DNA from: Prosthecobacter sp.
GTDB taxonomy: Bacteria > Verrucomicrobiota > Verrucomicrobiia > Verrucomicrobiales > Verrucomicrobiaceae
NCBI RefSeq assembly: GCF_014879935.1
Contig: NZ_JACSRD010000146.1
Location: 1-64,000 of the forward strand
Direction of reading: 5' to 3'
DNA: 64,000 nucleotides
Shown: positions 32,397-56,600 of the stretch, piece after piece
Layout: every line of letters begins with the position of its first letter
Position numbering within the stretch: the first letter of the stretch is position 1
Notes under the pieces: model-generated
Database searches by the model: none
What the model saw: the letters and a program-made list of their open reading frames with translations, nothing else
What the model was told of the DNA's origin: nothing
Position numbers and translations under genes: made by a program

Positions 32397-32460
32397 GGGG
32401 GGATAATGCGCCAACGATGGTGATTCATCTGTCTTTCGGCTTTCGCTGCGTATCGCTTTC

Positions 32461-35160
32461 TCACGCTGAGTGGTTCGTGTTCGCAAGCTGGTAGCGTTGA
32501 CGAGTTCGTGCTGAAAGGTTTTGCGAGTATGACTGAATGGTTTGCGCCCAATCTGGCTCGAACTGGCCGAGCATTCGAGGTCGATCTTTCGGTTTGGCTT
32601 CGAGATAGTCCAGCCAGGTGCCCAGCATTCTAAAAACATCAGATTCAAACGTCGCGGGCGTAAATATGCCTGCCCCCTCCGAAAAGAGGTCACGCAGCAA
32701 GTTCAGTGGAAGCCCGGCATCGACTATTCTGAAAAAGATAAAGAATTGCTCTTTCAGCCCGTCGGTTCCTAGAGCGATGAGAATGCGTTTTCCGAGTTGG
32801 AAGGCTCCTGCTTCGCCTTTGTCATTCCAAGCATCCCAGATTGCCTCGGCAAACTCCTCAACGGTGACATCCCAATCAAACAAATTCGTGCCTTTGTGAG
32901 TAGTTGCATAGTCCCACGCGGATTCGAATGATGAAAGGCGGCAGAGATGGCGTGCAATCTGTCCGTGATTATACGCCAGGCGCTCTGTTAGTGGCTGGCC
33001 TTCCCAGGCTTGAAGAGCCTGCTTTTGGTATTTCATCGCCTCAGCAGTCTTGCCTGTGGCCGCAAGGCACCAAGCCATCTGCTCCAGGCTGTCCACGGTC
33101 GAAATCGGGTGATTATCGCCAAACGCGAGCGATGCCTCGAACGCCTTCACCGCATCATCAAACTGCTCGGATTCTTTGAGGAGGATGCCTTTCAAGCGAC
33201 AAGCTCGACAGGCGTCTTTGCGGTCCATCTTCTTCAGAACCTCTTCAATCGGCGCTAGGATGCGCAGAGCAGGTTGTTGCGCGTTCTGCCCCCTGCTGAG
33301 CTGAAGCAAAAAGTGCTCTGCCAGCATCCAGGATTTCGCTGTTGTTTCTCGAATGCCTGCATTTGCCCACAGGCAAACTGCTCGGGCGGCCCATTCGGCG
33401 GCTTGTTGGATGGTTGGGCCCGCCAATCCATCTAGATGCTGGAACGCAAAATCAGATGCTTCCGTCAATGAAGAGGCGAGGGGATATGCTGAATCGAGTT
33501 CGACCAATGCATGAACCCATTCCGAATTTGTGAAGACAGATTGCAAAGCTTCCGCTGACTGGGAAAACCGGGAAAGAGTTCTTTTCCTGTCATCGGCAGA
33601 GTGCTGCTTCAGTAGGCTAGCGTGGAAATGATACTTTATGACTGAAGAAACTGGCATTCCAGCTAGTAGCTGGAGCGGCCGTCGCTCGCTTTCTACAGTA
33701 ATAGCAGCATCTGCCAGATGCTTCGCCTGCTCACATGCCGTCCGAAGTTCCTCATCGGTTTTGAATCTGTCGAAAACCTGCGCGTAAAATGTGGGCATGT
33801 CCTGGCCTGTGAATAGCACTTCATCCATCCAAAGCCATTCTCGGCCCAGCCGAACCAAGCTTTCCGCGTCTCGCATGCTCTCAGGCAGCAGCTTCACATC
33901 CACGCCGCGTTCGGAGCAGGCGAGTTTAGCCATGAACTCGGCCTCGGCGGGTTTGGCGCTGCCGAGGTAGCCTTCAGCGAAGTGCCACTTGTGGCGGAAC
34001 TCGATGCTGGTGGCGAGCAGGTCGGCGAGGATGGCTAGTTGGCAGGGCTGGTCAGGATCGACGTAGCGCATGCGGTAGAACTGGACGAAAAGCCGGTCGG
34101 TGACTCGGTAGGAGTGCTCCTTGTTGCCAGGGCGGCGCTCATTGACGACGTAGCCGTAGTCCACGAGCCAGCGGAAGGCACGTGAGATGTCATTTTGCCG
34201 GGCGTGAACACGGGCGGCGAGTTCGACCTGCGAAGCGGGCTCGCCACCGCGGATGAGAGCGTCAAAGACCTTGCGCGTGTTCGCCGGGAGGCGCTCGATG
34301 AGCGAGCGGTAGTAGTCGGACATGCGGTCGAGCGTGGCGGTGAGGTCAGCACTGGCGCTGACGGGGTCCTGCTCGTCGAGAATGGCGGAGGCAAGCACGG
34401 CTGCCACGCGGGCGCTGCCACCGGTGAAGCGGCTGTAGGCATCAATGCGGGCGAGCTGGCGCTGCGTGGGCACTTTCCCAATCAACTCGGCACGACGGGT
34501 CAGGTAGTGACGGTGGTCCAGCTCGTTCCAGCGCGGCATGGGATGGTGCTCAAACTGCCGGAAGAGCCTTTTTTCATAGGCCTCGTCAAACTCTCCTTCA
34601 ACCGCCGTGGCGAGGAGCATGATGCGCGGCTCGTTTTCCATGAGCGAACGCAGGCGTGAGGCGCGGACGGGCGAGTCAAAGGCCTGCTGGAGCAGCATGT
34701 CGAAGTTTTCGACCCCGATGACGAGCAGCGTGCCGGTGAAAGCCTCGAGCAGGGACTTCAAGGCAGTCTCCCAGGCGGCGGCCTCGTCTTTTTCACTCGT
34801 CTGCCAGGCGGGCGAGCTGCCTTTGCTACGCGGTTTGCCGGGGAGCAGCCTCTCCACCTCGCGCAGCCACTCGTGCGGGGCATAGACATTGGGCAGTTCT
34901 TCCGGCAGCAGGACAAACGCGGCGCTTTCGGTCATGACCTTAGGCCACATGGCCTGCACGAGGCAGAGGAAGAAGGACTTCCCCGCGCCACGCGGCCCGG
35001 TGACGAGCCAGTGGCGGCCTGCCGCTGGCTCCCGGTGCCGCTGGCGGACAAGAAGATAAAAATCATGCAGCAACTCCTCCCGTCCGGTGCTGAGCCGCAG
35101 AACGGTTTCCGAGCTCATTTGACGCGGATTGAACCACGGGATGTCCTTGGCGGCGGTCAT
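32461..35160 (-). CDS. ATPase with winged helix and TPR-like C-terminal repeats
   Basis: 899 residues from the ATG at 35160; a GTG at 35217 is possible and would overlap the upstream gene. P-loop GPRGAGKS (55-62). The Walker B position reads LLVIGVENFD, so the usual Asp is replaced while the Glu remains. A winged-helix domain lies at about 300-370 (VFDALIRGGEPASQVELAARV, DYGYVVNERRPGNKEHSYRVTD). The C-terminal half is helical with TPR-like repeats (EQFDDAVKAFEASLAFGDNHP, TGKTAEAMKYQKQALQAWEG). This is the architecture of STAND/ORC-type signalling ATPases, where the repeats sense and the ATPase switches. G+C changes near residue 415: a 60-base sample at 34321 has 42 G/C, samples at 33301 and 33541 have 30 each. 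Function unknown. Confidence 0.85.
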   Translation of the reverse strand: MTAAKDIPWFNPRQMSSETVLRLSTGREELLHDFYLLVRQRHREPAAGRHWLVTGPRGAGKSFFLCLVQAMWPKVMTESAAFVLLPEELPNVYAPHEWLREVERLLPGKPRSKGSSPAWQTSEKDEAAAWETALKSLLEAFTGTLLVIGVENFDMLLQQAFDSPVRASRLRSLMENEPRIMLLATAVEGEFDEAYEKRLFRQFEHHPMPRWNELDHRHYLTRRAELIGKVPTQRQLARIDAYSRFTGGSARVAAVLASAILDEQDPVSASADLTATLDRMSDYYRSLIERLPANTRKVFDALIRGGEPASQVELAARVHARQNDISRAFRWLVDYGYVVNERRPGNKEHSYRVTDRLFVQFYRMRYVDPDQPCQLAILADLLATSIEFRHKWHFAEGYLGSAKPAEAEFMAKLACSERGVDVKLLPESMRDAESLVRLGREWLWMDEVLFTGQDMPTFYAQVFDRFKTDEELRTACEQAKHLADAAITVESERRPLQLLAGMPVSSVIKYHFHASLLKQHSADDRKRTLSRFSQSAEALQSVFTNSEWVHALVELDSAYPLASSLTEASDFAFQHLDGLAGPTIQQAAEWAARAVCLWANAGIRETTAKSWMLAEHFLLQLSRGQNAQQPALRILAPIEEVLKKMDRKDACRACRLKGILLKESEQFDDAVKAFEASLAFGDNHPISTVDSLEQMAWCLAATGKTAEAMKYQKQALQAWEGQPLTERLAYNHGQIARHLCRLSSFESAWDYATTHKGTNLFDWDVTVEEFAEAIWDAWNDKGEAGAFQLGKRILIALGTDGLKEQFFIFFRIVDAGLPLNLLRDLFSEGAGIFTPATFESDVFRMLGTWLDYLEAKPKDRPRMLGQFEPDWAQTIQSYSQNLSARTRQRYQLANTNHSA

Positions 35161-35186
35161 GGATGGTGGGAGGTTTTTTTCCAAAT

Positions 35187-36350
35187 TCAGCTCACGCCGC
35201 GCTCGGCCCGCCACCACTGCCGAAGGAGGTTCAGGCTGAAGAGCCAGCGAAAGTCGGCTCCTTCGAGAATGAAGTTGTCGTATTGCAGCATCTGCACGAC
35301 CCGGCGGTAGCCTTCGGGCAGCTTTTTGCCGTTCAACCTCGCTCCAGCGGCTGTTTTGGCCCGCGCGATGGTGTCGAGCACTTGCTCGGCGATGGGGAGT
35401 TCTTCGCGAGAGTAGTGCTTCGAGAGCCTCTCACGGAATTGCTGGAGGAAGGAGCGGTTGATGGCAGGAAGCACGTCATCGTGCATCAGCGCCTCAAGCG
35501 AATCCTGTGGGCGCATTTGCGAGAGGTATTGCGTGGTAATGTTCAAGAACTCGGGAACGAAGTCAGGCAGGATCTGGAGCGTCGATTCGATGTGAGCGGG
35601 CTTTGAGGCTGTTTTTCCTTGGAGACGGCTGGCGAGGTATTCCTGCGCTTCCTCTTTGGAAAATGGCCGGATCGGCAGGCGAAAGAGCCCTCCGAGCACG
35701 GTATCTGGAATGCCGTGCAGAGTAAGCAGGTTTTCCATGCTGATGGAGCCTGCGATGATCATGCGAAGACCGGCATCGCGGAGCTTGCGCAGGCTGGCGA
35801 GCGCTACCGTCAGCTCCACATCTGGCACTCCGGCCCGGATGAGATTTTCGAGGAGGAAAGGTAGCTCGTCGATGCAGAGAACAGGCAGCTTTTCCGCCGG
35901 ATGCTTTGACAAAACCTGGCCCAGCGCCTCCACGAGCGGCTGCCAGTAGCGCGGCAGGGATTCGGGTGCCTGAAACTCGATCACGGGACCATCCGGGATG
36001 CCCACCTTGCCCACATGCTCGCGAAGCCACCCCATGAGCTTGTCCGGGACGCTGCCGAGCGTTTTGAGCAAATCTGTGGTCTCTGCTAGCAGGGATTTGG
36101 GCATCTCCCGTAGCAGATCGCGGTAGAAGTCATGCAAGCTCGTGTAGTCCTGAACATTGAGGAATCCGATCTGACCTCCCGCATCGGCATGCCGCACCAG
36201 CGCCTCTTTGGCCACCCAGCTCTTGCCAGTGCGACGGATGCCGGTCAGGAGCACGCTTTGGCGGCTCTGCCAGCAGTCGCGAATGAGTGCGAGTTCCTTG
36301 TCACGAAAGCGAAAGGATGGGTTGCGGAGCTGGTTGGAAGAGATGGGCAT
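35187..36350 (-). CDS. AAA/ORC-type ATPase with winged helix, first gene of a two-ATPase operon
   Basis: 387 residues. It starts with the archaeal-ATPase-like block FRFRDKELALIRDCWQSRQ, then P-loop GIRRTGKS (37-44), Walker B PVLCIDE (156-162) and a sensor-like strand MIIAGSI. The C-terminal 80 residues look like a winged helix (YRRVVQMLQYDNFILEG). The fold resembles ATPase_2/AAA_14-type proteins of mobile and defence loci. Its stop lies 26 nt before the start of the larger ATPase, so the two are surely co-expressed. A promoter and a palindrome lie directly upstream. No nuclease or other effector domain is seen in either protein. Confidence 0.85.
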   Translation of the reverse strand: MPISSNQLRNPSFRFRDKELALIRDCWQSRQSVLLTGIRRTGKSWVAKEALVRHADAGGQIGFLNVQDYTSLHDFYRDLLREMPKSLLAETTDLLKTLGSVPDKLMGWLREHVGKVGIPDGPVIEFQAPESLPRYWQPLVEALGQVLSKHPAEKLPVLCIDELPFLLENLIRAGVPDVELTVALASLRKLRDAGLRMIIAGSISMENLLTLHGIPDTVLGGLFRLPIRPFSKEEAQEYLASRLQGKTASKPAHIESTLQILPDFVPEFLNITTQYLSQMRPQDSLEALMHDDVLPAINRSFLQQFRERLSKHYSREELPIAEQVLDTIARAKTAAGARLNGKKLPEGYRRVVQMLQYDNFILEGADFRWLFSLNLLRQWWRAERGVS

Positions 36351-36365
36351 GGCGGAAGTTTTGTA

Positions 36366-36379
36366 AATTCATATGAATT
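36366..36379. promoter_or_regulatory. Perfect 14-bp palindrome, likely operator of the ATPase operon
   Basis: AATTCATATGAATT is fully self-complementary and begins 16 nt before the ATPase start codon. It sits just after the predicted -10 box, so a bound protein would block transcription. Either ATPase, both with winged helices, could be the repressor; that is inference. Confidence 0.5.
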
Positions 36380-36383
36380 GCAA

Positions 36384-36412
36384 ATCATATTTATGGCGGG
36401 CTGGCTTTGGAA
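36384..36412 (-). promoter_or_regulatory. Candidate promoter of the two-ATPase operon
   Basis: Read on the minus strand: TTCCAA (36412-36407), 17 bases, TATGAT (36389-36384). The -10 box is good, the -35 weak. The region is much richer in A+T than its surroundings. Start of transcription would fall inside the palindrome. Confidence 0.45.
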
Positions 36413-36450
36413 GGGCCTGCCAATGCGAGTCACCCAGTGCCAAGAAGTGG

Positions 36451-41159: not shown

Positions 41160-41690
41160 GGACGAGGCTTCATCGTTTTGCGAGTGGAGTTCTGATGCCG
41201 ACCCTGGCGCGGGTTCCGGCTGGGGGTCAGGGGAAAAGAGGGGTGGTCTGGTGCGAGTTTCGCCGCAGGCACCCTCTGGAAGATCACTGAGCGCGTGGAC
41301 CGGGGCGGGGGAGGAGGTCTGTGGCTGTATTTTCCACGAAAGGCAGGACATTTGGGAATTCAGGCACGGCGAGGGAGCAGGGGTGGATTCGCTGCAAGGC
41401 CTTGAGGCTGAATGGATTACCGCGCATCAAGGCATAATTCTGAGATTGCGTGAACTAAGTCACTACTTAGAGCTTGGCTTTGGAGCGGGACTTGCTACAG
41501 ATGGCCGCCGGTAATTTCTGCTTTTCTGCCCATGTCCCGCATCCGCCTCTTTTCCCGCATGCTTCAACCGCGGTGCTTCCACCTCACGGGACAGCTTTGC
41601 GCCCGGGTTTCCTCCTGGCCGCAGAAAGCAGGTTTCCTGCGCCTTTTGATTCCCTCTGTTTGGTCCTGCTGCCTCAATCCTGCTCCTGCC
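41160..41690. other. Intergenic region before the giant surface-protein gene
   Basis: About 530 bases. The giant gene's frame is open from 41532, but those 53 residues are Cys/Arg-rich, unlike a signal peptide, and are treated as leader. The region includes the palindrome at 41455-41470. No promoter with good spacing was found, and no RNA gene. Confidence 0.5.
41455..41470. promoter_or_regulatory. 16-bp palindrome upstream of the giant surface-protein gene
   Basis: CTAAGT, 4-base centre, ACTTAG: perfect 6-bp arms about 220 nt before the ATG. Could be an operator or a short hairpin; no direct evidence for either. Confidence 0.25.
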
Positions 41691-44600
41691 ATGAACACTC
41701 GTTCCTCCCTCCTGCGCTCAACCCGCGCTCTGCTTAACGCCTTGGTTGCTCGAAGCCGGCTGCTGGTCGTGCTAACTCCAGTTTTGCTGGGAACCCTTTA
41801 TGCCGGCACAGCCGTTCAGTTCACGGCACCGGGCACTGTCAGGACCAATTTTACCGGGACAGTTGGGTTCACCTTCACGCCGTCTTCGTCAATTACTGTG
41901 ACACATGTGGGCTTCTGGGACAACGGTGACGACGGATTGGCGGTGAGCCATCAAGTCGGCATTTGGCAAAACACTGGATTAACGCTCCTGGCATCTGAGT
42001 CAGTTCCCTCAGGCACCACCGCGCCGCTGACGGGTGGGTTCAGATATGTCGAACTTTCCTCACCTTTGGTGCTGTCTGCGGGGGTGCTCTATCGTATCGG
42101 GGCGAGCGTGGAAAGTTCTGATGGCTTTTGTCAGGATCCCACGGGGTTCACATCGGACTCTAAGGTCGGATATGCCAACAGTGCCTATGAAACAGCGCCT
42201 TTTGGCTTTCCCGGCAGCAACGCCAATCCCACCATCGGTTTTTTTGGGGTCAACTTTGTATTCGTTGCTTCCCCGACAGTGACAGGCATCACCCCAAACT
42301 CCGGTAGCACGGTGGGTGGCACGAGTGTGACAATTAGCGGCACGGAGTTGACTGGTGCGACGGCCGTGAAGTTCGGTGGCACGGATGCCCAGGCATTCAC
42401 GGTTGACAGCGCCACGCAGATCACGGCTACGACACCTGCCCATGGTGTCGGAGCAGTCAGTGTTCAAGTGACGACGCCCGGCGGCACCAATGCGGCGAAC
42501 ACCCTGTTCACCTACGTGAACTTTGCTCCGACTGACATCGCTCTTTCGTCCTCCAGCATCGCTGAGAACAACGCGCTTGGAGCCACGGTGGGCATGCTGA
42601 GCGCCACGGATGCCGATGCTGGCCAGACGCACACCTTCAGCCTCGTGACCGGCACGGGAGACACGGACAACAGCAGTTTCGACATCACCGGCAGCACCCT
42701 GACCCTCAATGGCAGCGCCAATTATGAATCCAAGAACAGCTACAGCATCCGGGTGCAGGCCAATGATGGCAATGGCGGAACGTTTCAGAAACAGTTCACG
42801 GTAACTGTGACCGACTTGAACGAGGCGCCGGTGATCACCAGCAACGGTGGCGGGGCGGCGGACAGCGTCACTGTGGCTGAGAACACGACTGCAGTGACCA
42901 CCGTGGTGGCCACGGACCCTGAGGTGCCGGCCACGCAGACGCTGACGTATTCCAAATCGGGAACGGATGCCGCATTCTTCACGATCAACAGCAGCACGGG
43001 GGTGCTCAGTTTCACCAGCGCGCCGAACTATGAAAGCCCGTCGGATGCTGGAAACAACAACGTGTACAATGTGACCGTCACGGCGACGGACAACGGCACA
43101 GGGACGCTGAGCGATTCACAAGATCTGGCGGTGACGGTGACGAATGTGAACGAGGCACCAAGCTTCGCCAAGGGCGCGGATCAGTTGCTTCCCAGCAATA
43201 CGAACAGCCTGCAAACGGTGACCAACTGGGCTACGGCCATCGACGACGGCGACAGCACGGTGACTCAGGGGCTGACCTTCAACGTCAGCAACAACAACGC
43301 CGGCCTTTTCACGACGGCACCCTCCATCAGCAGCAGCGGCACGCTGACCTACACCCCCAGTGGCACCGCGGGCACGGCGACGGTGACGGTGTCCTTGACT
43401 GATGACAACACGATCAACGGCAACCCGGCGCTGACGACCGCGGACCAGACCTTCACCATCACAGTGGAGGTGGTGGCGGACTACACCGTGTCCACGGCGG
43501 GCAATGCTGTCGTGATCACTGACAACAGCGGCAACGCGGACACGCTGTCCATCAGCGAACCCAGCGCGGGGAACATCAACTTTGCCGCCACAGGCCGCAC
43601 CTTCAGTGTCAACGGCGGGCTCAATCTCACGGGTGCCTCGGGCAGCCTTGCCCTCGCCGGTGTGACCAGCATCACGGTCAACGCCGGGGCGGGTGCGGAT
43701 GCCATCAGTGTGGGTGCCTTCACCGGCACGCTGCCGAGCCTCACTCTGAATGGCGGCATCGGCGACGACACCGTGAATTTCAACGGCGACATTACCTTTG
43801 CTTCCGGTGCGAGCCTGGACGTGGACCTGCAGAACGACAATGTCACACCAGGCACGGACGCTGTGATTGTGGCGGCCAATGCGAACGTGATCACCGCCGG
43901 CTCGGGCACTGTGGCGGTCAAGGTCAGCAAGAACATCGCGCTGGCCAGCGGGTCGAGCTTTGAAACGGTGGATGGTGGCATCACGCTGGAGGCCAATCAG
44001 CAGGGGACGCCAACAAGTGGCGGCTTTGTGGGTGTGGATGTCAGCAACGGCCTGGTCCGTTCGACCGGCACAGGAGTGGTTTCTGTTCTGGGCAAAGGCG
44101 GCAGCACAGGGAACGACCAGATCGGTGTACGCGTGCATGCTGGCGGCGACATCATTGGCGGCACGAGCGGCACCCTGACGGTCATCGGTGCTGGTGGCGC
44201 TTCGACTGGCACGGGTAACGCGGGTGTCAATGTAAACGGCAGTGGTTCCACGATCACAGCTCTCGGTGCGCATGTGCAGGTCACGGGCACGGGTGGAGGG
44301 GGTACATATAGCATGGGACTTGACCTCTATAGCTCGCCCCAAATCACCTCAACGGGAGCGGGCAATCTCACGATCACTGGCAATGGCGGGCTCAACCCTG
44401 CTGCTGGTGCGTTCAATCATGGCATCATCATGAGCGCAACCACGTTTGCCTCGACCGGAGGCAACATCAGCGTGACCGGCAACGGTGGTTCTGGTTCAAA
44501 TGCCAGCGGAGACTTCACCGGGATTCAAATGGACGACAGCACGATTACCTCAAGTGGTAGCGGCTCGGTGACGGTGAATGCCACAGCAGGAACAGCAGCA

Positions 44601-47600
44601 ACGTCGCAAACCACCATTGGCCTGGATATCCGGTTCACCTCACAAATCACCTCCTCTGGAGGCGATGTCAGCGTCACGGGCACGGGTGGCAACACGAGTG
44701 GCTCATCGACAGGTGCGGGCGCTGGCGTGCGACTCATCGGCAATGGCACGATCACGGCGGGCGGGACGGGTTCAGTCAGTGTCACCGGCGCGGGTGTGGG
44801 GGGCTCTGCCGCTGGCCATGAAGGCATCGTGATCAATGGTTCTGGCTTGAATTCGAATCTGGCGCGCATCGGTGCCGCCAATGGCGCGACGACGTTGACC
44901 GCTACCTCGGGCAACAGCGCCAGTCATGCCTTGGTGGTCGGGAGTTCCAACGCCGGGCGTATCACCACTGGCAACAACAATCCGATCATCATCAACGCCG
45001 ACAGCATTAACTTTGCTGGCTCTGCCATTGTTTCCAGCGGTACGGCCCCGACGACCATCAACACCCGCACAGCAGGCACCTTGATCAACCTCGGCGGCGC
45101 TGACGTGCTCTCAGGCAGTCCCCTCACTCTCGGACTTACGGACGCTGAACTGGATACGATCACCGCCAGCACGCTCATCATCGGCAGTGCCAGCAGCGGA
45201 AATGTGACCGTGAGCGCGGCCATCAGCCCAGCCAGCTATGCGACTTTGGACATCCAAAAAGGAGTCACCTTCTCCGCTACTGGCGGATTCGCCTCGGATG
45301 TGACTTCGATGGCCGTGTTTGAGAAGATGAAGGCCAACGGTGCCGTGGTCATCAACACCAGCGCCACGCTGACGGCGACCGCCCTCGGCGGCTATGTCCC
45401 CACCCAGTCGGATTCGTTCACGATCCTCGACAACATCTCCGCCAGCACGACGACGGGTAATTTCAGCGGCAAGTCCGAGGGCACGCTGGTCGCCATCGGT
45501 GGCACCAACCGCGCCATCACCTACACCGGGGGCACTGGCAATGATGTGGTGTTCACCTCCCTGGCACCGACGCTCACCACTCCCACCAGCACGGCACTGG
45601 CGGCTCTCACGGCCACGCTGGGCGGCAATGTCACGAGTGATGGTGGTGCCGATGTCACCGCACGGGGGGTGGTCTATTCGGTCACCACCACCAATGGCGA
45701 TCCCCAGATCGGGGGGACGGGAGTCACCACGGTCACAGGGACCGGGACCACGGGCGTGTTCACCGTCGATGTCAGCAGCCTTTCAGCGAGCACCGGCTAC
45801 ACCTATGCCGCCTATGCTACCAATGCGGCAGGCACCAGCTACAGTGCCACAGGCACCTTCACCACGACGGGTGACTTTGCTCCCACGCCGGGTGTCCCGG
45901 TCCATTACAGCGATGTGATCGGCGGCTCAGGTCCCGTCAAGATCACGGGAGGTGGCGAACTAGTGCTCAGCGGCGCCAACACCTACACGGGAAACACGCT
46001 GGTGCAGAACGGCAAGGTGTCCATCAACTCCGTCGCCCCCGGCTCGGCTCCGCAGCCCCTCGGCCGGTCAACCGACGTGCACCTGGGCGTGGCGGGCGCC
46101 TCCTCCGGCACGCTGGTTTACACCGGCGGCGCAGGCACTTTGGACAAGCACATCAGCGCCTTGGGCAATGGCTCTGACACCATCCAGAACTCCGGCAGTG
46201 GTCTGCTCACTCTCTCTGGGACGCTCACGAAAACAGGCACCACGCTCACCTTGAAGGGCGGCGCCTCTGGCATCCGGGTGACCGGCGCGATCACGGGCAA
46301 CACGGGTAGCCGGAACTCCGACCTGGTCATTGACGGTGGCACCACCACGCTGGCCAGCGCAAACACCTACAACGGCCCCACTTACATCATCAACGGCGGC
46401 ACGCTGAACGCGGACGCGGTGGACGCCCTTCCCACCAGCCCGGCGCGTTCGGACATCCTGATGGACCAGACCGGCACGGGCGGCTCCACGCTGGCCCTCG
46501 GCGTCAGCCAGTCGGTATTCTCCCTCACCGGGGCTGCCACCTCCTCCCTGAACCTCAATGCGAACTCGCTGACGGTGGGGGACGCCTCCGGCAGCAGCAC
46601 CTTTGCCGGCGTGATCAGCGGCGTCGGCGGCAGCCTCATCAAGGATGGGGCCAGTGAGCTGACCCTCACAGGAGCGAACACCTACACTGGTGGTACGACG
46701 GTGAGTGCCGGAACGATTGTCCTGGGCAACCAGGACGGCTTCGGCACAGGAACCGTGACCCTCGCCGACGGGGTCACATTCCGCACGGCCAATTTTGAGG
46801 GGAACAGCGCGGCGGGAGCTCTTCCGAACGACTTCGTGCTCAGTGGCGGGACGGTGAACGTGGATGTCAGCTTCGCGACCGGCAAGGACATCTGGATCAA
46901 CACGTCGGTATCAGGGACTGGCGGCCTGTCAGTGTCGGGCTCAGGACGAGATCCTGGATTGATGCTCTCTGGTGCCAAGACTTTCAGTGGCGGCGTCACG
47001 ATCGGCAGCGACAGCCGGGTGACGATTGATCACAACTCCTCCCTGGGAACGGGCGGCCTGCAAATCAGTGGCGGTACAGGCACCCTGCGAGTGGCTGGCA
47101 ATGTTTCAGGAGTGGCCAACGACATCTCCGTCGCCAGCGGGGCGATTCTCGGCGCCGTGGTGGACAGCGGCCTGACGGGCGTGCTGTCCGGGGTGATCAG
47201 CGGCTCCGGCGGTGGTCTGACCAAGAGCGGCGATGGCACCCTGGCTCTGAGCGGAGCGAACACCTACACGGGAGACACGACGATCAGCGCGGGCACCCTT
47301 CAGATCAACAATGGCGGCTCGCTTTCCACCAGCAGCGCGATCATCAACAACGCCACCCTGACCTTCAACCGCAGCACGGACATCACGCAGGGAACGCACT
47401 TTGCCAGTGTGATCAGTGGCACCGGTGCGGTGAGGAAGTCTGGCAGCGGCATCCTCGTGCTCACGGGAGCGAACACCTACACGGGCTCCACGATCATCAG
47501 TGGAGGCACGCTGCAGATCGGCAATGGCGGCACCACCGGCTCGCTTTCCACCAGCAGTGCGATCACCAACAACGCGACTTTAGTCTTCAATCGCAGCGAC

Positions 47601-50600
47601 ACGATCACGCAGGGCGCCGACTTCAACAGTGTCATCGGTGGCAGCGGCGGGACAGTGACGCAGTCGGGCAGCGGTACGTTGGTGTTCAATGGAAACAACA
47701 CCTACACGGGTGCCACGACAGTGAGCACGGGCGTGTTGAACATCCGGCACGCGAACGCTTTGGGCACGACGGCGGCGGGCACGAGCGTGACCTCTGGGGC
47801 TGCGTTGCAGATCCAGGGCGGCATCACCACCGGAGCGGAGGCCTTGACCCTGAACGGCACGGGCGTGAGTACCACCGGTGCTCTGCGCAATATCAGCGGC
47901 AACAATGACTTTGCGGGTCTGGTGACGCTGGGCAGCGCGACGCGGATCAACTCGGACTCCTCGGGTGAAACATTGACCCTGAGCAACACGGGCACGATCA
48001 CCGGTACTTTTGGATTGACCGTTGGTGGCGCAGGAAACACGACGATCGCCAGCATCATTGGAACCGACAGCGGAACCCTGACCAAGGATGGCGCGGGGAC
48101 GCTGACTCTCACGGCCGCGAACACTTACACGGGAACGACAACGATCAGCGCAGGCACCCTGGCCCTCAGTGGCAGCGGCCGCCTTTCCAACAGTTCCGCT
48201 GTCTCGGTTTCTGGCGGCACTTTCGACATCGGCAGCGTGAGCGACACGGTGGGAGCGGTGACCTTGGGTTCAGGCAGCATCACCGGCAGCACGGGGGTGC
48301 TGACGGGATCGAGCTACGCCGTGGCCTCCGGCAGTGTGAGCGCGATCCTGGGCGGTTCCGGAGTGGCTCTGACGAAGACGACGGCCAGCACGGTCACGCT
48401 CTCCGGAGTGAATACTTACACCGGGGCGACCACCATCAGTGCAGGCACCCTGGCCCTGAGCGGGGCGGGGGCGTTGTCCGACAGCACCGCCGTGAATCTG
48501 ACCGGAGCGACCGGTGTTTTTGACATCTCCGGCATCACGGCGTCTGGCGAGACCGTCGGCTCACTGGCCGGCGTGGCCTCGTCTTCGGTGGTGATCACCG
48601 GGAAGACGCTGACCGCAGGTGGAACGAATGCCAACACGACCTTCGCCGGTGTGATCAGCGGCGTTGGCGGGGCGCTGACGAAAGCGGGGGCCGGCGAGCT
48701 CACCCTGAGCGGAGCCAACACCTACTCTGGCAACACGACGATCGATGGTGGGGCGATCTTCATCAACCATGCCACGGCGATCGGTTCCGGAGCCTTGGTG
48801 GCCGGTGCAACGGCCCGGATCGACAACACATCGGGGAGCGCCATCACTCTTTCGAACAACAACAACGTGACCCTGAGCGGTGGCAGCCTGACCTTCACCG
48901 GTTCCAATAATCTGAGCTTCGGCTCGGGCGTCCTGACCATCAGCGGCAATAACCGCACGATCACCACCGATGGAGGTGTGCTGACCTTTGGTGGCATTGA
49001 TGCCGCTGGCTCCAGCCCCACGACGCGGAGCCTGACGAAGAGCGGAACGGGCACGCTGGTCATCACCGGTGCGGCTGGTGCCAATTTCCAAGGAGGATTC
49101 ATCCACGATGACGGAACGCTGATCCTTGGAAACAAGGCGTCTTTGGGCACCGGGGCGCTGACGATGCAGGGAGGCATACTTCAGGCCTCCACCGACCTGG
49201 ATGGGGCCAATGCGCTCACGGTTTCCGGCTGGAGCCTGGCAGCCAGTTCCAACTTCAGTGGGAACAGCAGCATCACGCTCGGAAACAGTACCGTTGGCAT
49301 GGGGGCCAGCCGTTCGATTTTCAATGACATCACCGCAGGAAAGGCCCTGACACTGGGTGCCTTCGCGATTTCCAGTGACTCGACTTCGCAAACCCTGACC
49401 ATCAGCGGGAGCGGGGCGACCACAGTGAATGGAGTCATCAGCAATGGCGGCACCTCGACGGGCAGCGCCCTGACCAAGAACGGAACGGGGGTGCTGACCT
49501 TGACGGCCGCCAATACGTATGCCGGTGCGACGACCATCACCGCTGGCACTCTGGCCTTGAGCGGTGCGGGTGCCCTTTCCGACAGCTCTGCGGTGAATTT
49601 GAACGGGGCTACAGCGGTGTTTGACATCTCCGGCATCACGGCTGCAAGCGAGTCCGTGGGCTCGCTGGCGGGTGTGGTGAGTTCGTCAGCGGTCCTGGGT
49701 GCCAAAACCCTGACCGCAGGCGGCAACGATGGCACCACCAGCTTTGCCGGGGTGATCAGTGGAACTGACGGCAGCCTGACCAAAGCGGGCACCGGAACCT
49801 TGACGCTGTCTGTAACGAACACGTTCACAGGCACGACGACGGTGAGCGCCGGAACGCTGTCGATCACCGGCAGCATCAATAACTCGGCCACCATTGCGGT
49901 GAATGGGGGCCTGCTTTCGACCAACGGTGCCAACAAACTGGCCGATACGGCGGCGGTGACGGTGTCAGGTGGTACTCTCACGGTGGGTGGGGCGGACACG
50001 GTTGGAACGCTGACAACCAGTGGCAGCGGCAGCACGATCGGCGGTTCGGCCACGTTGACGGCATTGACTTATGCCCTGGGTGGCACCGGCACGACCGTAA
50101 CGGGCAACCTGGGAGCGGGAACGATCAACAGCAGCGGCACAGTGGCGCTGAACGGAACGGCGGCGGCGGCGACGGTGAACGTCACCGCTGGAGCGCTGAC
50201 GCTGGGAGCCAGCAGCGCGATCAACAGCGCCACGGTCGTGGCCATCAGCGGTGGCAGCCTGACTCTGGGAGCCTCCAACCAGATCGGCGACGCGGCGGTG
50301 ACGGTTTCCAGCACGGGCACCCTGGCCTTGGGAACCAACAGTGACACGGTCGCCTCGGTCAGCCTGACCGGGACAGGCAGCATCACCGGCAGCACCGGGG
50401 TGCTGACCAGCACGGCGGCCTACGACATGCAGGCAGGCAGCGTGAGCGCGATTTTGGGCGGCACGGCCGGGCTGAACAAGACCACGACAGGGACAGTGAC
50501 CCTGAGCGGAGCGAACACCTACACCGGCACGACCCAGATCAGCGCGGGAACGCTGGCCTTGAGCGGGTCGGGTGCCCTCTCCAACAGTTCATCCGTGATC

Positions 50601-53600
50601 GTAACCGGCGGCACCTTCGACATCGGCTCGGTGAGTGACACGGTGGCCGGGGTGCAACTGGCATCCGGCAGCATCACCGGCACCAGCGGGGTGCTGACGA
50701 GCAGCAGCACCTACGATGTGCGTTCTGGCGATGTCAGCGCGATCCTGGGCGGCACGGTGGGACTGACCAAGACAACGACCGGTACGGTGACCCTGACGGG
50801 GGCCAACAACTACACAGGTCTGTCCGCTGTGAGCGCGGGCATTCTGAACATCCGGCATGCAACGGCTTTGGGCACCACCGCAGGCGGCACCTCGGTGAGC
50901 AATGGAGCCACCTTGCAGCTGCAGGGCGGCATCACCGTGGGAGCGGAAGCCCTGACCCTCAATGGCGGTGCCGCGAGCGGCGAGACGGGAGCCCTTGTGA
51001 ATGTGAGCGGAACCAACACCTATGGTGGAGCGATCACCGTGGCGGCCAGCAGCTCGATCTCGGCAGCGACTGGATCGGAGCTCAACCTGACGGGCGGTGT
51101 GGTCAAGAATGGCACCACAGCGACCTTCAACGGCGGCGGCACCATCAACGTGGGTACGGTCGGCATCAGTGGAGCCTCGGCGAACTCGGACCTGATCATT
51201 GATGGTGTCACGGTGAATCTGAATGTGGCCAACACCTACAATGGGCCGACAATCATCCGCAACAGCGGCACGCTCAAGGCCAACGTGGTCAACGCATTGC
51301 CCACGGCCAACGGGCGCACGGCGGTCACCTTCGACGGCTCGGGGACATCGGTGCTGACGCTGGGCGCGGCGCAGTCGGTGGCGTCGTTGACCTCCGCTGG
51401 GGTAGCGACGATCACACTGGACACCAACACGCTCACGGTGGGAACCTCGGCTGGCAGCACGACCTTTGCTGGGACTATTGGCGGCACGGGCGGCCTCACG
51501 AAAGATGGAGCGAGCACGCTGGTGCTCAGCGGCAGCAACACTTACACGGGCTTGACGGACGTGCAGGCCGGGACGCTCAGCTTTGGTGCCAGCGATGTCA
51601 TCGCTGACACCGCCAGCGTGAGGGTTTCGGGCGGCGCCCTGGCCGTCAGCACGTTCAGCGACACTGTGGCAGGCGTCCAATTGACGTCCGGCAGCATCAC
51701 GGGGAGCAGTGGCGTGCTGACCAGCACCAGCGCCTATGACATGCAGGCTGGCAGCGTGAGTGCGATCCTGAGCGGGGCGGTGGGGCTTACAAAGACCACG
51801 ACAGGCACGGTGACCCTCACTGGAGCCAACCTCTACACCGGGCTCACGACTGTGTCCGCAGGGATCCTCAACATTCAAAACGCCAGTGCCCTGGGAACGG
51901 TGGCGGCCGGGACCAGTGTGGCTTCAGGAGCCGCATTGGAACTCCAAGGCGGTATCACGACTTTGGCCGAAGCACTGACCTTGAACGGCACCGGCGTCAG
52001 CAATGGCGGCGCACTGCGCAATATCGGCGGGAATAACGATTTCGCCGGTCTGGTGACCCTGGGCGGAGCGGCGCGGGTCAACTCGGATGCTGGGACGCTG
52101 ACCTTGAGCAATACAGGAGCGATCACCGGTTCTGGACTTGGATTGACAGTCGGAGGTGCGGGCAACACAACGATTAACAGCATCATCGGCACAGGCACAG
52201 GTTCATTGACCAAGGATGGCTCTGGAACACTGACTTTGACTGGTGCAAACACCTTCACAGGTGCAACCGCGATCAATGCCGGGACGTTGCAAGTGAGCGG
52301 ATCGCTCGCTGCTGGCAGCAACGTGGCTGTAGCCACGGGAGGCACCCTGACGGGTGCCGGCACGGTGAACGGAAACGCGACCTTGACGGGCAATGGGGTG
52401 ATCAACCTCACCAATCCAGGTGTGATCAGCGGCACCTTGGGAGTGACCGGAGGCAACTGGAACGGAGCTGGTAGTGTGACCGGTGTTGTCACCTCCAGCA
52501 GCGGCACCTTCAACATTGGCAGCGGGGCGAATTTGACCGCGACCAGCGGACTGAACGTCACCGGGGGCACCATCGCGAGCGGCAGTGGCACTAGTACCAT
52601 CACGGGCAGTGTGAACTACACGAGCGCCAGTTCCAGCACCTTCAACGGTGTGATTGCTGGCAGCGGCAAGACGGTGACCATGAACAACGGCTCAGGCAGC
52701 CTGACGCTCGGTGGCAGCAACACCTATACTGGATTGACGGACGTCCAGGCTGGGACGTTGGCCTTCGGTGCCAGCAATGTCATTGCTGATACAGCCAGCG
52801 TGAAGGTCTCTGGCGGCACCCTGGCCATCGGAACACGCAGCGACACAGTGGCTGGCGTGCAATTGACCGCCGGCAGTATCACCGGAAGCAGTGGTGTCCT
52901 CACCAGTACCAGCACCTACGATGTCCAGGCCGGCAGCATCAGCGCAATCTTGGGTGGAACAGTTGGCCTGACCAAGACCACGGCGGGCACGGTCATCCTC
53001 TCAGGCACCAACACCTACACAGGGGCCACGCTCTTGAGTGCGGGCAGCCTGGTGGTCAATGGCAGCATCGGCAGCAGCAGCCTGACGACCATCGAAAGCG
53101 GTGCCACTCTGCTCGGCACGGGGACGGTCGGAGCGATCCAGCTCAACAGCGGCGGGGCGATCAATGCCGGCGGTGTTTCCTCGGCAGGCACTTTGAACAC
53201 CGGCAGCATTGCCATTGTGGACGGCCAGTTGGTGTTCAACCTTGGCGGCACAGGCAGCTACGACAGCTTGAACACGACCGGGACAATCGATCTGACCGCA
53301 GGCGGCACAGGTGCACAACTGGTTCTTAACGCGATCAGTGCTTATACGGCCACGCTTAACAACGCGTTTACTCTTGTGACCAACGATTTTGCTGACAGCA
53401 TCAGCGGGGCGTTTGCCAAGGGAACGTTCGGCGGCACGAAGGTGATCACCCTGAGTGGTGTGGACTATGTGGAGAATGTTCTGGGCTCAAATTATTACGG
53501 GCGCATCAACTATGCGGGCAGCTCCGCCACGCCAGCCAACCTCAGTGCTTCTGGCAATGACTTGGTGCTCAAAGTGGTGACACCGGAGATCACCATCACA

Positions 53601-56600
53601 GAGTCTGGCAACAACCAGACGGACGGCGGGACCTACAACTTTGGTGATGTGGACAAAGTCGTGCCAGCCGTCCCTCTCACCAAGACATTCACCATCAAGA
53701 ATGACGGCGAGGTGGATCTTCTGGACATCTACGTGAACGACCCGACCGGAGCCCATGCCGGCGACTATTCGGTCAATCGCACTGGAACAGCGACCTTCCT
53801 GCCTCCAGGAGCGAGCACCACTTTCACCGTTACTTTCGACCCGAGCCGGATCGGAACGCGCACTGCTGCCATCACGATCGACAGCACCGATCTGGATGAA
53901 AACCCGTTCAATCTGGCGCTTACAGGTGTTGGATCGATCGCGCGTGATCTCAGTGAGCCTTGGACGGTGCTCTATGGGGGCGTCGATGCTCCTGCCACAC
54001 GGCGTGACGGCGTGGCCATGGCGGTGGCCATCCAGCGCAGCACGACAAGGGACGAGGCGCTGGCTGTCTTCGCCACCGGCTATACGACCAATGCAAACGG
54101 CGACCGTGACATCTACACGGCCAAATATGACCCGGTGACTGGGGCGAAGTTGTGGGACCAGATCTTTGCTGGAGCGGCTGGCGGTGCTGACGAGGCGGCT
54201 GCCATAGCGGTGGATGCCAATGGGGACGTGGTAATCACAGGGTTTACGACCGTCGGCACCAGCAATACTGACGTATATATCGCGAAGTACTCCGGGGTAA
54301 ACGGGGTGGCCCTCTGGGAGGACACATATGCCGGGAGCGGAGGTAGCTTTGACGAAGGCAACAGCATCGCCGTGCATTCGAGCGGCCGTGTTTTGGTAAC
54401 GGGTTATGGCAGGACGTCCACCACCGGAGCAGACATGTATGTGGCAGGATACTCCCCGGCGGGCGGGCTTTTGTTCGAACGGTTGATTGATGGAGGCAGC
54501 AACGGAGACGATGTGGCTCGTAGCATCGCCGTGGACAGCGCGGGCGATGCCGCTATCGCCGGTTATGCTCGCGGATCTGGAAAAGACTTCAGAATCTACA
54601 AGGTCAACGGCTTCACAGGGGCCACTTCCTGGCAATGGAACGTCAATGGCAGCACCAACACCGATGACGAGGCTTTTTCCGTGGCATTCGACTCAACCGG
54701 TCAGGTGGCTGCCACCGGCACGGTCCGCAGCACGAATTATGATCTTTACACAGTCAAACTCACCGCCGCAGGCGGGCTTGTATGGCAGAAACAATGGAAC
54801 AGTTCGTTCAATTCGTCGGATGCGGGGTATGACATCGCCGTGGATTCCTCTGGCAACGTGATCGTGGGTGGGACCAGCTATCGTGCCGCCAGCATCATGG
54901 ACGGTTATGTCGTTAAGTATGCGGCTGCGAATGGAGCTTTGGTCTGGGATCGCCGTTTTAATGGATCAGTGTCAAACCAGGATGTCATCAACTCAGTCGA
55001 TCTCGACGGCCTCGACAACGTGATCGCGACGGGATTTTCGTTCAATGCCATTCCGAACTCCGATGTTCTGACAGCCAAGATGTTCGCCTCCGATGGCGGG
55101 CTCGTTTGGGAGAAGCGCTACAACAGCGCTGCTAGTGGCTGGGACAACGGAGTGTCAGTGGCTGTCTCTACCGATGGAAACGTGTTTGTGGGAGGTTATG
55201 CAGGCAGTTCGAGCGGCACATCCGACTTCCTCGTCAAAAACTATCAGGCCTTGGTTCCCCCGGTCCAAAATGCTCAGACCATCGCGTTTGCTAATCCCGG
55301 CGGTCCCCGGGTGGCTGGATCAGACCTGCCGCTATCTGCCTCCGCCTCCAGTGGCCTTGCCGTGAGGTTCTCGGTGGTAAGCGGACCCGCGACACTCAAC
55401 GATGGCAACAACACCTTGAGTTTCACAGGAACGGGCCCAGTGACCATCCGGGCCAGCCAGCAAGGCAATAGCACATGGGCCAAGGCGACGCCTGTGGACC
55501 AGTCATTCACCGTCATCAAGAGCAGCCAGACCATTGACTTTGCCCTTCCCTCCACCGTCCCTTACACGACCAGCACGGTGGTCCTCTCTGGGGCGGCCAC
55601 GAGCAATCTGGCGGTCACCTATGCGATCGTGAGCGGCCCTGGCACGATTACAGGAGACGTGCTGTCGTTCACCGGCAGCGGAGTGGTGACAGTGAGCGCG
55701 AATCAGGCCGGGGATGCCCGCTTCAACGCCGCCACCGAGGTGCAGCGAAGCATCAATGCTTCCAATACAGCTCCAGTGATCATTCCTGCTGGCGTCCAGC
55801 AAGGGTGGCTTTTGTCTTATGCTGGAAGTGGAGCTGGCGAGGGCCGAGCCGTGGCACTGGAGGTTTCTGGGAGCAGCGCTGTGGCGTCATTTGTTGCTGG
55901 CTACACTACAGTGGGTGGCAACAAGGACATTTACCTTATGAAGTTCAATAATGATGGAACTGCAGCATGGGGGGCGCCAACGATCGTCCCTGGTTCAGGC
56001 GGCGGCGATGACGAAGCTGTGGCCGTCGCAGTTGATGCCTCTGGGAATGTGTACATCAGCGGCTATGTCACCATGGGATCCGGCAACACAGATGTCTATG
56101 TGGCCAAATTCAATGGTGGCACAGGTGCGAATGTGTGGACGCGCACCTTCGCCGGAAGCGCTGGAGGTGCCGATGCGGCAGTGGGGCTTGCGCTTGATGG
56201 TGCAAGTAACGTGATTGTCGGGGGCTACACTCGCAGCATCGCGGGCACTGGCAATGATTTCTTCGCCGCCAAGCTCTCACAAGCGGCCGGCACCACTGTC
56301 TGGACGGCCACACACAACAGCAGTGGAGCAGTCTCGGATGTGCCCAATGCCGTCGCCGTCGGCGGCAGTGGGGACGTGGCACTTGCCGGAATCGCGGGTA
56401 GCGATGCGTGGACTCTTCTCCTTCATTCGAGCACGGGGGGCATCAAATGGCAACGTCGCTATGATGCGCAGAGCAAGCCTGATGCCGTTCGGGGCGTGGT
56501 GGTGGATGCTAACAACGATGTGATCATCACCGCCTACAGCCAGGCTGCCAACTACAACATCTACACTGCGAAATACTCGCGGGTGGATGGTGATATCATT

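Follow-up and report, generated by a model that had tools for sequence, protein, structure and literature searches.

Bacterial systems that resemble the nucleotide-binding leucine-rich repeat receptors (NLRs) are, as known so far, mostly single proteins in which a sensor, an ATPase and an effector are fused. In plants, paired NLRs consist of an adjacent sensor and helper, one of which has a variable recognition part. Here we describe genes A and B, two neighbouring ATPase genes of Prosthecobacter sp. (RefSeq assembly GCF_014879935.1), found in a window of 64,000 nt (contig NZ_JACSRD010000146.1, positions 1 to 64,000). Among the closest described systems, PH0952 is a single protein, one end of which is a DNA-binding effector domain (PMC6468293), the Avs and bNACHT proteins usually have an N-terminal effector (PMC10907252), and CARD-NLR, or LypABC, combines an Orc1-like ATPase with tetratricopeptide repeats (TPR) in a tightly repressed operon (PMC13236601).

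Judged by their sequences, A and B are a real two-ATPase module of the STAND (signal transduction ATPases with numerous domains) type, apparently undescribed: literature searches, which did not extend to preprints and most subscription papers, found no account of the pair. Its strongest features are a cassette-like middle part of B and a genome-unique, clade-specific putative operator, both of which are absent from an earlier note on the same DNA.

The two ATPases and the variable middle of B

Gene A (36350-35187, minus strand) encodes an AAA_22 or archaeal-ATPase-like (STAND/ORC) ATPase of 387 aa (Pfam AAA_22, 4e-8), with a C-terminal part that looks like a winged helix in the AlphaFold2 model. 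Gene B (35160-32461, minus strand) encodes 899 aa, which include a STAND nucleotide-binding oligomerization domain (NOD), a winged helix, TPR-like repeats and a conserved C-terminal cap, as suggested by matches to TPR_12 (1.6e-5) and, weakly, to AAA_16, and by the model. With ATG at 35160 as the start of B, 26 nt separate the two genes; an alternative, longer frame of B with a GTG start would overlap A. Each gene is present in a single copy in the genome. Both P-loops are intact, GIRRTGKS in A (from about residue 37) and GPRGAGKS in B (from about residue 55), and the respective patterns GxRRxGK(S/T) and GxRGxGK(S/T) are conserved. The winged helix of A is inferred from its modelled C-terminal fold; that of B is backed by Pfam MarR/HTH matches in relatives, to HTHs of the MarR/TrmB-like type. 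The TPR matches in the window's B are weak and cover residues 652-720, and those in its relatives are strong. The earlier note, which had described two same-strand ATPase genes 26 nt apart, each with a P-loop and a winged helix and the larger with TPR-like repeats, is thus borne out by the minus-strand order of A then B and by these matches.

The order of parts found here is that of STAND proteins, i.e., a P-loop NOD, then a winged helix, and then a C-terminal superstructure-forming sensor, represented by the hypervariable, TPR-like region. The model of A (predicted local distance difference test, pLDDT, 85.7) matches Cdc6/Orc, CED-4, plant NLRs and Avs4 in PDB; the model of B (mean pLDDT 68.9) matches Cdc6/Orc1, the STAND protein 6mfv and Dark. 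Only the STAND/ORC class is claimed for either protein, because the Foldseek TM-scores are low (0.2-0.5). Attempts to name A and B through Pfam, NCBIfam, PADLOC, PHROGs and PDB sequences yielded only P-loop, TPR and weak HTH-level matches. No named family was obtained for either from PADLOC, NCBIfam or PHROGs; in PADLOC, the P-loop-level matches were to PDC-S01, PDC-S27 and mad8, with HTH-level matches in relatives, neither protein matches the Avs profiles, and neither satisfies a system model. The statement of the earlier note that the pair belongs to no named system agrees with these searches.

The middle of B changes as a cassette between close relatives, while NOD and the C-terminal cap stay conserved. 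Residues 1 to about 370 of B (34053-35160, minus strand), comprising NOD and winged helix, are 66-67% identical to the proteins of L035 and L036 and contain invariant GPRGAGKS, EN-D and GG-R; the cassette, residues about 430-790 (32793-33873, minus strand, limits approximate), is delineated by a drop in identity, a drop in GC and swap islands in relatives; and the cap, residues about 790-880 (32523-32793, minus strand), has its invariant residues clustered at 823-872 in Verrucomicrobiota and Methylococcaceae. Comparison of the window's B with L035/L036 gives about 65-67% aa identity for NOD and about 20-28% for the middle, and GC falls from 0.64 in NOD to 0.54 in the cassette.

One such exchange is seen in Methylococcales. 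A 17-kb locus of G660 and G661 is about 96% identical at the nucleotide level outside a stretch of about 800 nt of B (residues about 473-740 of 845), where 300-nt windows go down to 44-66% identity and then return to 94%; an assembly fault is unlikely, because one of these genomes is a single contig. The same interruption inside B is observed between L152 and L153. Between the plasmids of Moraxella osloensis NP7 and NBRC 115781, identity of A is 99%, each block of 50 residues keeping 92-100%, and B drops to 44-74% past residue ~400; in strain KSH, B is equal to that of NP7, and A is interrupted by an insertion sequence. In G044 and G060, A and residues 1-380 of B are 99% identical and the remainder of B 61%, a near-identity that could partly reflect binning. 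Averaged over 143 comparisons in which A is more than 50% identical, mean identity is 0.62 for A, 0.73 for the N-terminal part of B and 0.43 for its C-terminal part.

Co-inheritance, insertion site and putative operator

The distribution of the two genes indicates that A and B are inherited as a unit, the presence of which is patchy and spread over at least two phyla, as far as sequence comparison can tell. Gene A was found in 16 of 143 relatives, and in 16/16 it is followed immediately by a same-strand B. In a phylum sample of 388 genomes, A was matched over most of its length in 15, and B was found in 14 of these 15, G430 being the exception. In Methylococcales, A is present in 16 of 311 genomes and B is adjacent in all 15 whose regions were inspected. 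Overall, B stands beside A in 46 of 47 A loci of Verrucomicrobiota and Methylococcales, most of which were located by searches with A. The distances computed for A correlate tightly with those for residues 1-400 of B (Mantel r=0.98 for 45 pairs; the maximum in 2,000 permutations was 0.29). Contigs were also scanned with a profile built from the close A clade; the closest clade is represented on a metagenome-assembled contig of Methylococcaceae too, with A 44% and B 37% identical. More remote relatives of the pair are carried by plasmids of Moraxella osloensis; no relative of A or B was found in viral contigs, and the search of plasmids and phages with the window's A returned none. Genomic contexts vary, and some genomes have two pairs. 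The recurring STAND/ORC-type two-ATPase unit suspected in the earlier note is, accordingly, supported by the P-loops, the fold matches and the 46 of 47 loci with their differing contexts; the finding that was to count against it, either ATPase occurring mostly without the other, did not materialize, A being almost never seen without B; A-less relatives of B do exist on plasmids.

In the window, the pair lies between a DUF1592-type cytochrome gene (38901-36451, minus strand) of PSCyt1-PSD3/5/4/PSCyt3/PSD2 architecture and a DUF1552 gene (32396-31134, minus strand). The insertion, measured from the DUF1592 stop to the DUF1552 start, is 4,054 nt long (32397-36450, minus strand) and contains exactly A and B. 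In at least 19 congeners the site is empty, with about 15-40 nt between the same stop and start. As proposed earlier, these genes are normally neighbours; their spacing of about 4 kb is not ancestral, and a four-gene order conserved through the whole lineage, which had been named as a refutation, is not seen. Terminal repeats, target-site duplication or transposon-like ends were not found at the insert. Two congeners have other inserts of about 0.47 kb, different from each other, at the exact DUF1592-DUF1552 junction (L062:3825-4301 and L055:1015-1501), each with one small ORF for a protein resembling a four-helix bundle of the IVS type, flanked by short, imperfectly matching inverted repeats. 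The junction may be one at which insertions are tolerated. Elsewhere in the window, the plus strand contains one open frame of 5,434 aa (41532-57836).

The second distinguishing feature is the operator-like palindrome ATTCATATGAAT (36367-36378, no strand), which lies 16 nt upstream of A. It is present once in the window, against 0.05 expected by chance at no more than one mismatch, and once in the whole 7.7-Mb genome. G060 and G044, the A of which is 59% identical, have ATTCATATGAAT twice in tandem at the corresponding position, and no further copy in the genome. Each of 8 genomes of another clade has TTGACRYRYGT-N8-ACGTATGT exactly once, always just a few nt ahead of A; in the pairs of Methylococcales, sites of the ACGTACGT type are found repeatedly, further clades have different motifs upstream of A, and Moraxella plasmids have three ACTATA-N4-TATAGT sites. 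Inverted repeats upstream of A exceed those in control promoters (mean z 2.4 vs 0.15, p=7e-8), the excess not being significant at every single locus. The pair is, we infer, autoregulated through this private putative operator; a wider regulon on the same site is unlikely, because the operators of the window and of the 8-genome clade were found only at A. That A by itself reads the operator was considered, since a solo A (L119) retains it, and then rejected, because palindromes are found upstream of B-alone plasmid loci too. The private promoter and palindrome of the earlier note fared unequally: the palindrome stands and is unique in the genome, and a sigma-70 consensus promoter was not found upstream of the window's A. 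In the other clade, TTGAC-N-TATGTT overlaps the putative operator. In Verrucomicrobiota pairs L039-L046, a -10-like TATGTT precedes the start codon (ATG) of A by 6-8 nt, from which a leaderless or nearly leaderless A transcript is predicted in that clade.

Proposed role and competing explanations

On balance, we favour, with slightly better than even confidence, a role in immune or other non-self recognition, with A and B as an NLR-like (STAND), self-regulated surveillance pair, probably directed against invaders. B would be the receptor, with a TPR-like cassette that binds a ligand subject to rapid variation, most probably a phage protein or one of another mobile element. Binding would let NOD exchange ADP for ATP, and the activated B would oligomerize with its sensor-less partner A, much as plant sensor and helper NLRs do. 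The winged helix of A and/or B would repress the promoter via the private operator, so that a complex that is costly or toxic stays scarce, and activation may relieve this repression. Either the A-B assembly itself would be the effector, or a protein would be recruited in trans; in some plasmid relatives, this partner could be encoded by the adjacent Avs4-like, CARF/PRTase or cyclase genes. A more specific proposal is that the pair represents an undescribed class of bacterial paired NLRs, made of a receptor ATPase with swap-in sensor cassettes and a helper ATPase, which includes no effector domain, has travelled between phyla along with its dedicated operator, and is found solitary on chromosomes or before other defence operons on plasmids; this we regard as tentative, its probability being well short of even.

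The plasmid neighbourhoods are where an association with defence is seen. In M. osloensis NP7, genes of the QatC/QatD type precede the pair, and genes for dUTPase, PRTase-CE, an ORC-CDC6-like protein, CARF and methylase follow it. In M. osloensis NBRC 115781, B is overlapped at its 3' end by an Avs4/PD-Lambda-4-like gene, an arrangement seen on plasmid pSKB0120-2 (L179:7122-10868); NP7 and KSH have the dUTPase/PRTase/ORC-CDC6/CARF/methylase operon in the same place instead. The gene set behind the Moraxella pair is, then, exchanged between strains. Plasmid relatives of B without A adjoin Pycsar, AbiE, TIR/JAB/E1-E2 genes or nucleotide cyclases. A-less, B-like STAND-TPR genes stand divergently to nucleotide cyclase genes at L115:1-5413 and L116:5093-11204 (those of Sphingobium belonging to Pycsar), and the promoter region that they share contains palindromes. 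A B homologue of 1748 aa (L124:2820-8066) continues into NACHT and then into a C-terminal FGE-sulfatase domain, for which an antigen-sensing role in STAND conflict systems has been proposed (PMC10907252).

Several observations weigh against this role. Near 37 chromosomal pairs of Verrucomicrobiota and Methylococcales, PADLOC families are not enriched relative to control genes of the same genomes (19 models were matched by 121 neighbours vs 23 by 118 control genes), so that the direct defence assignment contemplated in the earlier note is not supported for these pairs, the association being confined to the remoter plasmid relatives. No effector domain was found in A or B in family searches, as the earlier note had also remarked. 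The TPR assignment of the window's B is below Pfam cut-offs, its model is weak, and the low TM-scores count here as well. B relatives without A occur on plasmids of Sphingobium, Agrobacterium and Mycobacterium, and B may therefore work alone in some branches. Finally, several genomes are metagenome-assembled.

A transcription regulator of STAND architecture, like MalT, AfsR or PH0952, with TPRs that sense a small molecule or a protein and switch neighbouring or other genes, would have the same layout of NOD, TPR and winged helix, and the 6mfv match (PMC6468293), the likeness of B wings to MarR/TrmB-like HTHs and the palindromes between B and divergent cyclase genes on Sphingobium and Agrobacterium plasmids all point that way. 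We nevertheless consider it rather unlikely: the operator is confined to the pair's own promoter in 11 genomes, so that no regulon is visible, the neighbours differ between genomes, and cassette swapping suits no conserved metabolic ligand.

Unlikely too is an addiction or abortive-infection module of toxin-antitoxin kind, in which one ATPase restrains the other. The patchy, solitary and presumably autoregulated bicistron with a genome-unique operator-like site does recall toxin-antitoxin modules, and several pairs are plasmid-borne; however, neither protein resembles a toxin or antitoxin fold or family in the searches made, each is a large ATPase whose P-loop is intact, hypervariable repeat cassettes are not a hallmark of such modules, and there are one A without B and B relatives without A. 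Quite improbable is a decayed or integrated mobile replicon of which A and B would be the ORC/Cdc6-like initiator or partition pair and the palindromes the iterons. The attraction of this reading lies in the Orc/Cdc6 folds among the best PDB matches and in iteron-like repeats at 16-nt spacing upstream of A in one clade; but the pairs are mostly chromosomal, no repeats, integrase or other replicon genes accompany their insertion, and the hypervariable middle of B is given no role. A host-function pair for the DUF1592/DUF1552 proteins, e.g., in their maturation or export, would explain the same-strand position exactly between both genes, but is refuted by the empty sites of the congeners; this context recurs in none of the relative pairs found.

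If the surveillance-pair reading is true, bacteria would have a two-ATPase, effector-less arrangement that resembles paired plant NLRs, and natural allele swaps would reveal where its specificity lies. Natural material for cassette swaps is provided by G660/G661 and by the Moraxella strains, the proteins being near-identical outside the presumed sensor.

Comparison with known systems

The likeness to plant paired NLRs, an adjacent pair with one variable member, is best taken as an analogy; the model of A aligns with plant NLR NOD regions, whereas beyond NOD no domain organization is shared. Avs and bNACHT proteins similarly combine a STAND core with a variable C-terminal repeat sensor, and Avs4 is among the matches of the A model; they differ in having the N-terminal effector fused to the STAND core, which A and B lack, as they lack a PADLOC Avs match. 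LypABC resembles the pair in its Orc1-like ATPase and TPR and in the tight repression of its operon, but its effectors are peptidase proteins, whereas A-B consists of two ATPases and no peptidase. PH0952, MalT and AfsR share with B the P-loop NOD, winged helix and TPR sensor, and 6mfv, which is PH0952, is among the top PDB matches of the B model; yet each of them is a single protein with a DNA-binding effector domain, whereas B carries no added effector and has A as a near-obligate partner.

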